From contig CABYCL010000010.1 in NCBI GenBank assembly GCA_902517505.1, positions 1 to 41,550 of the forward strand: a DNA stretch of 41,550 nt, given 5' to 3'. The notes under the pieces were generated by a model. That model searched no databases, had not been told where the DNA came from, and saw only the letters and a list, made by a program, of their open reading frames with translations. Each line of letters begins with the position of its first letter. Position 1 is the stretch's first letter. This DNA is from an uncultured SAR86 cluster bacterium (lineage in GTDB: Bacteria; Pseudomonadota; Gammaproteobacteria; Magnimaribacterales; D2472). The position numbers and the translations under genes were made by a program. Shown here piece after piece: positions 11,913 through 16,158 of this stretch.

Positions 11913-12893
11913 ATGAAACACTTATTTCTGATTATTTTACTATCTAGTTTTTTCCTAGAATCAGATGAGGGAGATATAGTTGAAACCAAGATTGTAAATC
12001 TTCAAGATTTTTCAATTGACAAACCTTCATATTGCAAAGAAAGAGCCTCAGAAGATAGTCTGATATGGTCGCAAGATTTTAATCAAAATTATCTATCACC
12101 TGATTTTTGGAATTTCGCGACATCTAATGGTTTCCATAATGGAATATCCTATATTAGTGGATGGGGTAATGGAGAATTACAATATTATACAAAACCATCT
12201 CGAAAAGAAGCAGAATCTAAAACTACAAAAAATCTTTTTATTGAAGATGGATATTTAAAAATACAACCTATATATAAAAAAAATACTTCAAGAATAAGAG
12301 ATGATGAGAATGCATATAACTTTACATCAGCAAGAATTGATACAAAGAATTTAAAATCTTTTTCATATCCCGCAAAAATATCCATCTGTTTTAAAGTACC
12401 AAAGGGAATAGGGTTTTGGCCAGCATTTTGGTTAATGCCTGTTGAAGAAATACAATGGCCAAATGGTGGAGAGATAGATATTATGGAAAACAGAGGCAGA
12501 ATATCTAATATAGCCAGTTCAGCTCTTCATTTTGGAGAAAAATGGAATAAAAAATCTACTCTTGTTGGAGAGGCACTAATTCCAAGAGAAGTTCGTTTCC
12601 AAGATAAATTTCACTCAATTTCACTTATTTGGAGAGAGAATTCAATGGAATTTTATCTTGATAATGCAGCAGAGCCATATTTTAAAATTGATTCTAATAA
12701 TAAGGAATTTAAAAAATATAAATATCCATTCAATAGAGACTATTACATGATTTTAAATGTTGCAGTTGGAGGAAAGTATGACGATTTTTGGGTAGATTAT
12801 GATTCTTTTTGCATAGACGAAGAATGTTCTAATAAAACAATTCCAGATAATCATAGATTTTTAATCGATTGGATCGAATATGAGAGCCTATAA
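11913..12893 (+). CDS. Secreted GH16 family beta-glucanase, laminarinase-like
   Basis: This 326-residue enzyme is predicted to cleave beta-1,3-linked glucans such as laminarin outside the cytoplasm. A short signal peptide (about residues 1-18) leads to a jelly-roll domain. Key marks are SGWGNGELQYYT near the N-terminus, GFWPAFWLMP, the GH16 active site EIDIME with Glu187 (nucleophile), Asp189 and Glu192 (acid/base), and ALHFG shortly after. The C-terminal part has MILNVAVGGKY and ends in the expected DWIEYE. Specificity within GH16 is inferred. No Shine-Dalgarno is visible before the ATG, and the gene begins 7 bases after tRNA-Leu, so its message may come from tRNA processing. A TonB receptor gene follows on the same strand and may import the released oligosaccharides. 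Confidence 0.88.
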   Translation: MKHLFLIILLSSFFLESDEGDIVETKIVNLQDFSIDKPSYCKERASEDSLIWSQDFNQNYLSPDFWNFATSNGFHNGISYISGWGNGELQYYTKPSRKEAESKTTKNLFIEDGYLKIQPIYKKNTSRIRDDENAYNFTSARIDTKNLKSFSYPAKISICFKVPKGIGFWPAFWLMPVEEIQWPNGGEIDIMENRGRISNIASSALHFGEKWNKKSTLVGEALIPREVRFQDKFHSISLIWRENSMEFYLDNAAEPYFKIDSNNKEFKKYKYPFNRDYYMILNVAVGGKYDDFWVDYDSFCIDEECSNKTIPDNHRFLIDWIEYESL

Positions 12894-13056
12894 AATATAC
12901 AAATTAATATATTATCAGCTACCTTAAGAAAATATTAAGTATAAAAATAATATACTTTTTTTGTATAAACCCTAGCCATATCTATTTTCATATATATACT
13001 TATTTAATGATGTTTATTATTAACATACATAATAAAAAACGGGAGCCATCAGTATA

Positions 13057-13104
13057 GCTGGGTTATCTGTTTAGATTTACCCAGCATATGCTGGGTTTTT
13101 TTTT
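13057..13104 (+). promoter_or_regulatory. Putative attenuator/antiterminator leader of the TonB receptor gene
   Basis: Three complementary segments lie upstream of the receptor: GCTGGGT (13057-13063), ACCCAGC (13079-13085) and GCTGGGT again (13090-13096). The middle copy can pair with either outer copy but not both. Pairing with the right copy makes the intrinsic terminator below; pairing with the left copy would disrupt it. This is the layout of a transcription-attenuation switch. A conserved-looking stretch GGGAGCCATCAGTATA just upstream might be part of a sensing domain. I do not match it to any riboswitch class I know. Confidence 0.5.
13079..13104 (+). terminator. Intrinsic terminator in the TonB receptor leader
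   Basis: A 7-bp perfect stem ACCCAGC/GCTGGGT with an ATAT loop is followed directly by a nine-T run (13096-13104). It sits only 20 bases before the receptor ATG, with an AGAGGA ribosome site (13111-13116) in between. It therefore lies in the 5' leader of that gene or between it and the GH16 gene. It could simply end the GH16 transcript, but the duplicated left arm argues for regulated read-through. Confidence 0.75.
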
Positions 13105-13123
13105 ATATTGAGAGGATATAATT

Positions 13124-15487
13124 ATGAATAAATTAAATATAGTATTTTTTTCTTTTTTGTTAGTACCTTTTCTTCTTATATCTCAGGAAGTAGAAGAAGT
13201 AATTGTTACTGCTAATAAGAAAGCTGAAACTCTTCAAGAAATACCAATGAACATTTCTGTTATAAGCGAATCAGCATTAGAAGAAAGAGGAATAATGAAC
13301 CCCGAAGATTATTTACGATCTCTTGCGGGAGTTTCTTCACCGGGTGGAGCAAATTATTATACCTTCAGAGGGTTAAATACTTCTACATCTCAACGTTCTT
13401 CAGGAACTTCTTCAACTTATATTGATGAAGTAAGTGGGGCTCTTATGAGTTTATTTGATATTGAAAGAATTGAGGTGCTTAGAGGCCCACAAGGAACGCT
13501 GTATGGATCAAATGCTATTGGAGGAACTATTAGATATATTACTAATAAACCTGATTCAAGTTCATCTTATGGAAAAATAAGAGTTGGATACGGGAATAAG
13601 GTAAAAGCTGATGATCCCGAAACAAGTATTGAAATGATGTATAACTTATCGATTTCAGATAGCCTTGCTCTAAGAGCAGTATATTCTCAACTAGTTTCAC
13701 CTGGTATATATAAAAATATACAAACCGGGAATACCGTTGGTGAAGAAGATGATTCACAGTTAATGGTTACACTTGGTTTCAATGATGGTGGCAAGTTAAC
13801 AGGAAGTTTAAGATATATTAATTTTAATAACAAAGCATACGGAATATTAGAACCTGGTCAAAGTAAACCTGGAAGTGCAGACGTCTATGTTGAGGGCTGT
13901 CCTCAGGCAACCAGTTGGTTTTATAATTTTGATGGCGATCCAACATGTTCACGTTTAAGTGCAATTTCAACATATGCAGTCAGCGAGGGCGTTAATGGAG
14001 TTCTTACAAATTATGATCCAAAATTTGCACATGCTTTAGCAGCGGATGAATCTGAGGATATTACTAGAGAAACTTTAATTGCGAATATTAAATATGACTT
14101 TGGTGCTTTTGATGCTAACTTAATTATTTCTGACAGAACAGTAACTGATGATTCAGTAACTGATTGGGCTAGAATTGATATGGATGATTATGTTCCAGCA
14201 CCACTAATTGTAGATGGAGATGAATATTACCAAGAAACAACTGAGCTAAGATTAATCTCAAAACCGGGAAAATTTGAGTGGACTGTAGGTTATTATAATT
14301 ATAAGTTTAATGAAGAACCTAATTCAGTATCACAAACTCAATATGCGGTGGATCAAGATTGGTTAGAGTATGTGATGCTTTATGCAGCTGGTTTAAGTCC
14401 TGGCGATTATGATGCAACAATTTATTGTCCTCCTTTCTGTGATGATCATTTAGGCTATCCATACTTCTATTATGGTTCCTATACTGAGTACAACGAGCAA
14501 GAAGAAACATCTTTTTATGGTCAATTTGATTACAACGTTAATGACAAGTTAACACTAACATTTGGTATCAGAGATTATGAAATTGAAGATGCATCAAAAT
14601 CTTATCAGTATGGTATCTTCTTTATGGGCAGCAATGGATGTGATGGTAATGATCCTGCTGGAACTGATTGTGCTGAACTTTCAGGATCAGAGTCTGATAC
14701 AAGAATGAAATATGCTCTTAATTACATGGTTAATGATGACTTAACCTTGTATGCAACACAGGCAGCCGGGTATAGACCTGGTGGAAATCAGGCTCCACTT
14801 CCACCTTTTTGTAGTAGTGACGAAGCAGCACAAGCAAACTTCTCAAGAAGATTTAATTCAGACGAAGCTGAGACTACAGAATTTGGAGTGAAAGCAAGAG
14901 GCGAAAATTATAGTGCCAATGTTACATATTTTGATGTTGATTGGGATGGAATTATCATTCAGGTAACACCGGGTTGTGGATGGAGATATAATTTTAATGG
15001 TGGTAAAGCTGAGACTTCAGGTTGGGAAGTCGACTTTACTTATGCAGTTAATGATGAAATTTCTCTTGATTTTGCTGGAAGTTCCATGACCGCTGAGACA
15101 TCAATAGATATTTCATCTCTTGGAGCTTCAGCTGGCGATAGACTACCTAATACAGTTGAAACTCAGTGGAATCTTGGAGTGGTATATGACACAACAATTA
15201 TGTCATACCCATCTTATGCAAGACTTGATGTAAATTATTACGGAGATAGCTTTAATACTTTTGCTGAGAATCCAAATTCAAGCTCACCGGATTACACTAA
15301 GTTAAATTTTAATCTTGGATTAGACTTGAATGATAATTCAAAATTACAACTGTCTATAGATAATCTTACAGATGAGAGAACTGAAGCATATATTTATGCA
15401 GTTAATGATACCTCTTGGAGGCCTAGAAATTGGATGCAATGGATACCTCCTAGAACTGTAACACTTAAATACTCTTACAGTTTCTAA
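13124..15487 (+). CDS. TonB-dependent outer-membrane receptor
   Basis: This is a 787-residue TonB-dependent receptor that would import a scarce substrate across the outer membrane using energy from TonB-ExbBD. It has a signal peptide (about residues 1-20), then a TonB box-like EEVIVTA (25-30) and the plug domain with LQEIPMNISVIS and RIEVLRGPQGTLYGSNAIGGTI. A beta-barrel follows whose last strand ends with an aromatic residue (YSYSF), the usual signal for BAM assembly. The closest style I recall is the receptor group abundant in sphingomonads and SAR86. The substrate is not evident. The GH16 gene upstream suggests a glucan product; the downstream P450 operon suggests instead a hydrophobic compound. 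A ribosome site AGAGGA precedes the ATG and an attenuator-like leader lies before it. Confidence 0.92.
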   Translation: MNKLNIVFFSFLLVPFLLISQEVEEVIVTANKKAETLQEIPMNISVISESALEERGIMNPEDYLRSLAGVSSPGGANYYTFRGLNTSTSQRSSGTSSTYIDEVSGALMSLFDIERIEVLRGPQGTLYGSNAIGGTIRYITNKPDSSSSYGKIRVGYGNKVKADDPETSIEMMYNLSISDSLALRAVYSQLVSPGIYKNIQTGNTVGEEDDSQLMVTLGFNDGGKLTGSLRYINFNNKAYGILEPGQSKPGSADVYVEGCPQATSWFYNFDGDPTCSRLSAISTYAVSEGVNGVLTNYDPKFAHALAADESEDITRETLIANIKYDFGAFDANLIISDRTVTDDSVTDWARIDMDDYVPAPLIVDGDEYYQETTELRLISKPGKFEWTVGYYNYKFNEEPNSVSQTQYAVDQDWLEYVMLYAAGLSPGDYDATIYCPPFCDDHLGYPYFYYGSYTEYNEQEETSFYGQFDYNVNDKLTLTFGIRDYEIEDASKSYQYGIFFMGSNGCDGNDPAGTDCAELSGSESDTRMKYALNYMVNDDLTLYATQAAGYRPGGNQAPLPPFCSSDEAAQANFSRRFNSDEAETTEFGVKARGENYSANVTYFDVDWDGIIIQVTPGCGWRYNFNGGKAETSGWEVDFTYAVNDEISLDFAGSSMTAETSIDISSLGASAGDRLPNTVETQWNLGVVYDTTIMSYPSYARLDVNYYGDSFNTFAENPNSSSPDYTKLNFNLGLDLNDNSKLQLSIDNLTDERTEAYIYAVNDTSWRPRNWMQWIPPRTVTLKYSYSF

Positions 15488-15506
15488 AATTGTCATAAAT
15501 ACATTT

Positions 15507-15533
15507 GATGTAGGGAGTTCGACTCCCTACATC
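15507..15533 (+). repeat. Perfect hairpin overlapping a tRNA-3'-end-like sequence
   Basis: A 12-bp perfect inverted repeat with a TCG loop starts 20 bases after the TonB receptor stop. It lacks a T-run, so it is not a typical intrinsic terminator, though it may stabilise the 3' end of the receptor message. Its right half, extended to 15540, matches the 3' end of tRNA genes: bases 15517-15540 agree at 20 of 24 positions, without gaps, with the last 24 bases of the tRNA-Leu gene in this window, including terminal CCA. No D-arm or anticodon arm lies upstream, and a T-arm with a 7-base loop would contain mismatches, so this is not a functional tRNA. Confidence 0.6.
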
Positions 15534-15555
15534 ACCTCCATATATAATTGTGCCC

Positions 15556-16158
15556 ATGAACAAAGTAGCAATATTTGGAAAAAAAGGCTCGATATCTAAA
15601 TATGATTTAATTGAGAACAAGCCAATATGGGTTGGAGACATAACTCCAGGCTATAAACCGGATATCATTGGTCAGTATGAGAATTATATAATTGTCTTTA
15701 GCTCAACTTGGGCAGGCTCAAAGATGGTTCATTGCTTTCAAGAAGATTCTGGAAACCTTCTTTGGTCGCACTATCAACAAACACTCCATAGCATATTGGT
15801 ACCATTTATACCTCATACCTATGAAAATCATATGTACTATCTCGCTTCTTCAAAAGAAGTTGCAAAGCTATCTTGGGATACTGGAAAAATTATTTTTAGA
15901 AAAAGATTTAAAAAATCAATTTTTAGTCAATATTTCCTAGTAATAATTTCTGATGAAGTTATTTTAATATCAAAAAAAAATGCTTTTATAGTGGACAAAC
16001 AGTCAGGACAAATAGAACCGTACCCAGAACTTTCCAAAAAATTAAATTTAAAAGAAATATCTACTGCGTTGGGTAATGGTGTTTCTTTTATGTCTTCAAT
16101 TTACTTGACGCATCCCCAACCAACTGCAGATGGTGGTGGTGCTGGCGGTGGTGAATAA
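15556..16158 (+). CDS. PQQ-propeller-like protein, unknown function
   Basis: I do not recognise this 200-residue protein with confidence. Repeated beta units with segments such as VHCFQEDSGNLLWSH, KLSWDTGKIIFRK and IVDKQSGQIEPYP resemble blades of PQQ-like beta-propellers, but only about three to four are present and there is no signal peptide. The protein ends in an unusual low-complexity tail, HPQPTADGGGAGGGE. A GTG two codons upstream (15550) is an alternative start. The cytochrome P450 gene starts one base after its stop, so this is the first gene of a three-gene operon with the P450 and an MFS permease. It might be a cytoplasmic partner or sensor of the P450 pathway; that is a guess from position only. 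Confidence 0.6.
   Translation: MNKVAIFGKKGSISKYDLIENKPIWVGDITPGYKPDIIGQYENYIIVFSSTWAGSKMVHCFQEDSGNLLWSHYQQTLHSILVPFIPHTYENHMYYLASSKEVAKLSWDTGKIIFRKRFKKSIFSQYFLVIISDEVILISKKNAFIVDKQSGQIEPYPELSKKLNLKEISTALGNGVSFMSSIYLTHPQPTADGGGAGGGE

Follow-up and report, generated by a model that had tools for sequence, protein, structure and literature searches.

A putative arginine attenuator seems to have been kept in a SAR86 lineage while a TonB receptor gene took the place of the arginine operon behind it

A TonB-dependent receptor gene of an uncultured SAR86 cluster bacterium is preceded by an RNA leader that is very likely a classical ribosome-mediated transcription attenuator reading charged tRNA-Arg, kept while the receptor replaced an arginine operon. 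The anatomy of this leader is conserved among relatives, either of two genes lies downstream of it, the locus is shared where the flanks are comparable, and arginine genes are missing where the receptor follows. The window, i.e. the whole stretch of 41,550 nt that was analysed, belongs to a genome of 1.06 Mb in 28 contigs that is 83% complete. The preliminary description of this DNA had proposed GCTGGGT, ACCCAGC and GCTGGGT in this order, followed by nine T, as an attenuator-like switch, and all of these elements are present (Table 1). The closeness to the receptor gene also stood, with the ATG 19 nt past the last T instead of the 20 bases given. The span of 13041-13104 contains the three arms but starts too late, since a -10-like box, a leader ORF and arm 1 all begin before 13041.

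Table 1. Features of the leader and of the gene behind it in the window
Feature	Position	Strand	Basis
-10-like box TATACT; -35-like TAGCCA at 12973-12978, spacer 16	12995..13000	+	9 of 12 consensus letters
Leader ORF MMFIINIHNKKREPSV followed by the stop (start 13007 or 13010)	13007..13057	+	Sequence; ORF in all 50 strong leaders
Arm 1, pairs with 13057-13072 (1:2, anti-antiterminator)	13037..13053	+	Fold and partner-swap test across lineages
CGG (Arg) codon, presumed control codon	13040..13042	+	CGG in all 50 strong leaders
Arm 2 (left arm) GCTGGGT	13057..13063	+	Sequence, leader alignment
Arm 3 (middle arm) ACCCAGC	13079..13085	+	Sequence, leader alignment
Arm 4 (right arm) GCTGGGT	13090..13096	+	Sequence, leader alignment
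T9 tract, intrinsic terminator	13096..13104	+	Terminator scan, sequence
TonB-dependent receptor, putative controlled gene	13124..15487	+	PF00593 and PF07715 above cut-off

In a scan of both strands the exact triple of 7-base arms followed by T6 occurred once in the 41.5-kb window, and it was absent from all 300 first-order Markov simulations of the window. Hairpin 3:4 was the sole terminator-like site in 12000-13600, where 0.6 were expected from shuffles, and the fold of 13040-13108 reached -28.1 kcal/mol (z = -5.7), which was matched by none of 200 shuffles. Folded as isolated hairpins, 3:4 of the window leader has -12.3 kcal/mol versus -15.4 kcal/mol for 2:3. The leader ORF reads ATG ATG TTT ATT ATT AAC ATA CAT AAT AAA AAA CGG GAG CCA TCA GTA TAG and comprises 15 or 16 codons, depending on the start chosen; the last base of its stop codon is the first G of the left arm. 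Matches like those to the -10 and -35 boxes were equally frequent in shuffles. Behind the receptor stop codon, a perfect 13-bp hairpin at 15506-15534 is terminator-like on the minus strand only; the receptor gene may be transcribed alone. Further downstream, a 200-aa PQQ-like ORF and a cytochrome P450 ORF overlap by 29 bases (16130-16158).

Homologous leaders were brought in by a BLAST search of the window leader against 107 genomes of the family, and a covariance model was built from 30 aligned leaders. This model gave one strong match (E<=2e-9) per genome in 50 of the 107 genomes; as it was made from 30 of these leaders, some likeness among the 50 is there by construction. The alignment omitted repeats of an identical 60 nt before the terminator, one leader with an N (L025) and the four terminator hits of L004 and L037, on both strands, that are devoid of a left arm. 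In L004 (contig C4 of G000, around 69899) and L037 the ACCCAGC/GCTGGGT hairpin stands elsewhere, apparently as a bidirectional terminator without left arm. Weak family matches with E-values from 3.6e-4 to 0.0073 were set aside, and the one in G008 (L037) was such a hairpin terminator. A search of the order (203 genomes, family included) yielded, at E<=1e-4, a single additional match from outside the family, a weak one (G127, E 2.6e-5), which was set aside; it overlaps the end of a 434-aa ORF that matches neither window nor arg proteins. However, the leader precedes each of the 28 argF' genes found in genera other than g5 and each of the 21 receptor genes found in the window genus, and is lacking at the 19 argF' genes of g5 and in 14 genomes elsewhere that encode receptor orthologs. 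Genome searches used a loose first look and, over 40 genomes, stricter filters by which weak matches are lost; the absences given here hold at such sensitivity.

When the leaders were read, the start codon closest to 14 codons was chosen; a stop codon close to the left arm was obligatory, and CGG was not. All 50 strong leaders harbor an ORF of 13-15 codons upstream of the switch that ends at the left arm. The stop codon begins 2-6 nt upstream of arm 2 and is a TAG overlapping the left arm in 45 leaders and a TAA just upstream of it in the other five. The frame is uninterrupted in all 42 distinct leaders (identical leaders merged; that of G060, which contains an N, dropped), and the other two frames are interrupted in 36 and 33 of the 42. 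Shuffling of the letters interrupted the frame in 28.7 of 42 leaders on average, with a minimum of 16 in 2000 trials. A CGG codon was found in every one of the 50 leaders, despite its rarity among the Arg codons of the window (0.2%), and starts 17 nt (46 leaders), 18 nt (two) or 20 nt (two) before the left arm. In 45 of the 50 a -10-like hexamer (TATA-like or TAT(C/T)AT), identified by pattern, ends 6-9 nt before the leader start, and the five leaders of genus g7 show one at 6-7 nt in a looser reading. Because of this spacing the ORF would begin at or close to the predicted transcript start, which places the putative start of transcription near the leader AUG.

The preliminary description had asked for compensatory changes in the three arms among relatives. 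It had named loss of the left arm with the terminator kept as the outcome that would leave only a terminator of the upstream transcript, and this outcome was absent: the left arm pairs with the middle arm in all 50 strong leaders. Among them, all seven 2:3 pairs are formed in 12, six in 37 and five in one. Across the 30 aligned leaders 2:3 is paired in 90.5% of cells, and partners slid by 1-3 columns give 20-46%. Hairpin 3:4 is paired in 99.0% of cells, in rows that were chosen for having a terminator, and shows one compensatory change from C-G to U-A. No compensatory change was detected in 2:3 of the 30 leaders, and no covariation of arms 2 and 3 was seen. The covariation check says little in either direction, since the three arms hardly vary, and support for the switch comes instead from the leader ORF and from an additional hairpin, 1:2.

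This further helix appeared on folding the leader upstream of arm 3; in it, leader codons pair with the left arm and the spacer behind it. It was examined by swapping partners among 22 lineage representatives of the 42 leaders, where the counts are not strict probabilities as lineages share ancestry. The outer stems of 1:2 average -5.47 kcal/mol in native combination versus -4.10 (sd 0.37) in swapped combination, and 0 of 5000 swaps were as good. Pairing of arm 1 with the left arm was equalled in 8 and pairing with the spacer in 45 of 5000 swaps; for 2:3 the number was 2713 of 5000, i.e. no partner-specific signal. The 1:2 helix folds weakly in some leaders, such as that of G076. In the window it differs in layout and takes in CGGG. 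As CGGG is paired in some of the 1:2 folds, including this one, part of the CGG conservation may be structural. Mean stabilities of the isolated hairpins are -12.1 kcal/mol for 2:3 and -13.0 kcal/mol for 3:4, and 3:4 is the more stable one in 37 of the 50 leaders, the window not among them. Taken as a comparison of sequences, these results favor conditional termination before the receptor gene, as the preliminary description had suggested.

The genes behind the 50 leaders start within 50 nt of the model match and are of two kinds: argF' in 28 and the TonB receptor in 21 genomes, with neither in one. The argF' gene encodes N-acetylornithine carbamoyltransferase (NCBIfam NF003384, 537 bits, cut-off 288), and in the regions that were read it is followed by argG and by genes recognised as argB, argC and argH. 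In one genome (L138 in G040) the match to the argG that follows argF' falls into two parts, as though the gene were divided between frames. The one leader with neither gene, in G044 (L155 / L077; 59% complete), resembles that of G100 and has MFS fragments in broken frames nearby; either deletion of the operon or chimeric assembly may explain this. The preliminary description had left the signal open as a ligand, a protein or a leader RNA. Two observations, the CGG codon of the leader ORF and the arginine operon that follows the leader in relatives, suggest charged tRNA-Arg as the putative signal, with a ribosome as its reader.

Arginine codons in the 42 distinct leaders are 42 CGG, 26 AGA and seven CGA. 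Leaders of the arg operon contain two or three Arg codons in 26 of 28 cases; leaders of the receptor contain one in 15 and two in six of 21, which counts against the attenuator reading, as textbook attenuators carry more control codons. An attenuator of this type could also respond to something other than arginine, namely to general slow translation at a rare CGG codon or to His or Lys. Indeed CGG is extremely rare (one of 434 Arg codons, or 0.2%, in the ORFs of the window, where AGA occurs 327 times), and one minor tRNA would read it, given the Arg anticodons TCT, TCG and ACG among the 33 tRNAs of G061 (96% complete), all of which were typed. CGG would be read by tRNA-Arg(UCG) through wobble. 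A point against the attenuator reading is that 26 tRNAs were found in the incomplete window genome, with Arg anticodons TCT and ACG, none of which is expected to read CGG. A His codon is frequent in receptor leaders, as is Lys. However, in many receptor leaders this His codon sits inside the 1:2 hairpin as ACAU/AUGU, and many arg leaders keep the hairpin as ACAC/GUGU without His; His as the sensed codon was therefore ranked second to base pairing. A signal other than arginine is also difficult to reconcile with the 28 genomes where an arginine operon follows the leader, whose ORF in most cases contains AGA or CGA in addition to CGG. Moreover, eight argF' upstream regions were examined in genus g5, in which 19 genomes encode argF', and five of them (L114, L116, L121, L122 and L137) hold an unrelated ORF of 37-40 codons with an Arg cluster at its end, made up of codons different from CGG. 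These clusters range from RRSRSI to RRRRRSI (e.g. TRRRRRSI and stop) and lie 34-36 nt before argF'. No such ORF was found in L115, L118 and L138, where argF' was anchored by pattern only. No T-run terminator was seen at the g5 leader ORFs, which possibly act by translational attenuation. A non-arginine signal is thus improbable, though it is the strongest of the alternatives. A further hint at arginine as the signal is that no ArgR regulon was recognisable: ArgR (PF01316) was above cut-off in none of the 107 family genomes, with weak matches in G059 and G094, and in eight of 14 control genomes.

The locus of the leader was compared among relatives. Between relatives of the window genes W10489-W11379 and of the MFS gene W17512, the segment carries the receptor in all seven receptor regions read besides the window (G054, G056, G061, G077, G079, G080 and G082) and argF' in G001, G053, G098, G100 and G101. 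In G091 the upstream side is shared over the part of the contig that was read, and G063 and G060 share the downstream side and the GH16 gene. In genus g7 (G051) leader and argF' are found amid other neighbours, with GH16 upstream in G048, and in the two g5 regions read the argF' operon is located elsewhere and lacks this leader. Among 34 genomes of the window genus, 24 have strong leaders, 21 of them before the receptor and three before argF'; in the other ten, no strong leader match and no match to argF' or the receptor was obtained. Over all 107 genomes argF' was found in 47 and the receptor in 36, and a single genome has both (Fisher p = 7e-11, kinship ignored). In this genome, G098 (L139), the leader lies between the end of the receptor gene and argF', and G088 (L148) has the receptor at the locus with neither a strong leader match nor argF'; the two may represent stages or parallel outcomes of the exchange.

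None of the 21 genomes with the receptor behind the leader (63-96% complete; many genomes are incomplete) showed a match to argF', including five that are at least 90% complete (G054, G061, G074, G079 and G080). Likewise, argG was not found above 20 bits in these genomes (cut-off 268); G055, G075 and G076 gave weak matches. Among the 34 genomes, argH was above cut-off in G063 and G060 only, and other lyases match more weakly throughout. In a tree of the MFS gene (31 rows, rooted at the midpoint), the 19 receptor rows of the window genus form one clade (96/93) beside G063 and G060 (fork 99/98). The receptor label needs three changes over the whole tree, since the receptor occurs in G088 and genus g3 with no leader before it. 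As the leader is followed by argF' in the other genera, a single exchange within the window genus is the simplest history, and it would have run from operon to receptor. The arginine attenuator thus seems to have been kept in one lineage while the operon behind it was replaced.

If so, the receptor might merely use an old promoter left by the lost operon, with the attenuator in decay. Receptor leaders do contain fewer Arg codons than arg leaders, and their outer 1:2 stems are weaker (mean -4.28 versus -6.65 kcal/mol). Nevertheless, all 21 keep the ORF, the CGG, the left arm and the terminator, although the receptors behind them have diverged to 67% identity, and partner-specific 1:2 pairing persists in 11 receptor lineages, where 48 of 5000 swaps did equally well. 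We therefore regard a mere relic as very improbable.

Two further explanations are hardly credible. The hairpin could be nothing but the terminator of the upstream gene in the window, GH16 (PF00722), as it lies on the same strand about 185 nt past the GH16 stop codon, but a promoter-like site and an ORF intervene, the left arm is kept in all 50 leaders, and the upstream gene varies while the leader stays: it is GH16 in G063, G091 and G053, a TonB receptor in G098, a P450 relative in G001, an oxygenase-like gene (recognised by eye) in G101 and W11379 in G100 and G054. A riboswitch or protein-responsive terminator would agree with alternative helices before a transport gene, and TPP and cobalamin riboswitches are described before TonB receptors in the available passages of PMC2659441 and PMC9723704, but conservation beyond the arms tracks the coding frame, the CGG and the 1:2 pairing. 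Furthermore, the failure of the preliminary description to match a known riboswitch was confirmed: an Rfam scan of the window gave two tRNAs and nothing else above gathering score, and a permissive scan of 12850-13200 gave no hit at gathering score, be it a riboswitch, a T-box or any other family. Its best sub-threshold matches were sRNAs with a similar terminator (RprA first, 33.4 bits versus a gathering score of 70), which were rejected as they rest largely on the U-tailed terminator.

Ribosome-mediated attenuation by arginine is the reading that accounts for the parts found: a leader ORF, CGG control codons with an arginine operon behind 28 of 50 leaders (for the receptor, the pathway is presumed), an intrinsic terminator 3:4 before the gene, a competing antiterminator 2:3 evident from pairing without covariation, and a protector hairpin 1:2 formed from the leader ORF. 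By spacing, and with a generally known ribosome footprint size, a stalled ribosome would free arm 2 and a ribosome at the stop codon would cover it. RNA polymerase would initiate at the leader AUG or slightly upstream of it, and a ribosome would translate the leader peptide of 13-16 codons. With enough Arg-tRNA this ribosome would pass CGG and reach the stop codon at arm 2; with arm 2 masked, arms 3 and 4 would make the terminator and transcription would end ahead of the receptor gene. Under shortage of Arg-tRNA the ribosome would stall at CGG and cover arm 1, arm 2 (17 nt downstream) would be free, 2:3 would form and transcription would continue. If there is no translation, 1:2 would form, leaving 3:4 free to form, and transcription would stop. 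Stalling, termination and arginine as the signal are predicted here from sequence. In relatives the leader heads the arginine operon, and in the SAR86 lineage of the window arginine shortage would raise the uptake of what is most likely an arginine source, in replacement of synthesis.

From the operon exchange and the missing arg genes, we infer that the receptor takes up an arginine source. As receptor orthologs in 14 other genomes occur without the leader, this argument rests on the window lineage. There is about an even chance that these bacteria are arginine auxotrophs in which the same sensor of arginine starvation now drives import, through a TonB receptor whose substrate is arginine or peptides that contain it. 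Named sequence relatives of the receptor are siderophore, colicin and heme receptors, PDB matches cover mostly the plug domain, and the AlphaFold model is poor (mean pLDDT 52). Its homologues in named genomes comprise 25 loci, 19 of them in records named SAR86 cluster bacterium (SAR86A included), five in gammaproteobacteria records and a distant one (36% identity) in Sphingosinicella.

In its architecture the leader resembles the attenuators of the proteobacterial ilv, leu, phe, trp and his operons as far as these are described in the available text of PMC2659441, with a leader ORF carrying a control codon, a stop at arm 2, helices 1:2, 2:3 and 3:4 and a T-run terminator. Unlike these, the SAR86 leader would sense arginine, with one Arg codon in most receptor leaders; its ORF starts at or near the predicted transcript start, and the gene under its putative control encodes an outer-membrane receptor. 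Arginine is sensed by ribosome pausing at Arg codons (AGG, CGG) in the orf34 leader of Salmonella speF, according to the passages available from PMC6386406. There, pausing protects the mRNA from RNase G, with additional layers of Rho and the ribosome-binding site, whereas the SAR86 leader has an intrinsic terminator; the two are likened by description, not by sequence. For carA of Pseudomonas aeruginosa, an arginine/pyrimidine gene, the accessible part of PMC4997734 describes a leader peptide and suspected attenuation, and a title cited there states that no untranslated region exists. Attenuation of carA is ascribed to pyrimidines and arginine acts at transcription, while no ArgR was found in the SAR86 family. 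The cobalamin and TPP riboswitches likewise link a nutrient to a TonB receptor by a cis-acting RNA, and in one such case the first steps of synthesis are missing, as indicated in the passages at hand (PMC2659441, PMC9723704); these RNAs bind the metabolite, however, and the SAR86 leader would be read by a ribosome. Exchange of sensors, with attenuation systems evolving as modules, is described for hisS genes in the portion available of PMC2965389. In hisS the sensor changes and the gene stays, whereas here the sensor would stay and the gene change. Leader ORFs that sense other amino acids are treated in PMC8632094, whose available passages do not mention SAR86 or TonB. In the literature searched on arginine attenuators, on SAR86 leader peptides, auxotrophy or TonB and on attenuated TonB genes, subscription papers being mostly outside the coverage, no title or abstract describes this element, and no example of an amino-acid leader-peptide attenuator of an outer-membrane receptor was found. 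Provisionally, the mechanism is known, and the sensed amino acid, the target gene and the exchange look new.

SAR86 bacteria are abundant in the surface ocean and, to our knowledge, most of their TonB receptors have no known substrate. A leader that heads arginine synthesis in relatives and a receptor gene here provides a concrete guess at the substrate of this receptor; if true, an orphan SAR86 receptor would thereby be given a substrate class. The leader also predicts arginine auxotrophy in the lineage of the window, and is a candidate for arginine control in the family, where ArgR was not detected. Finally, the exchange would show a regulatory element staying put while the gene behind it is exchanged.
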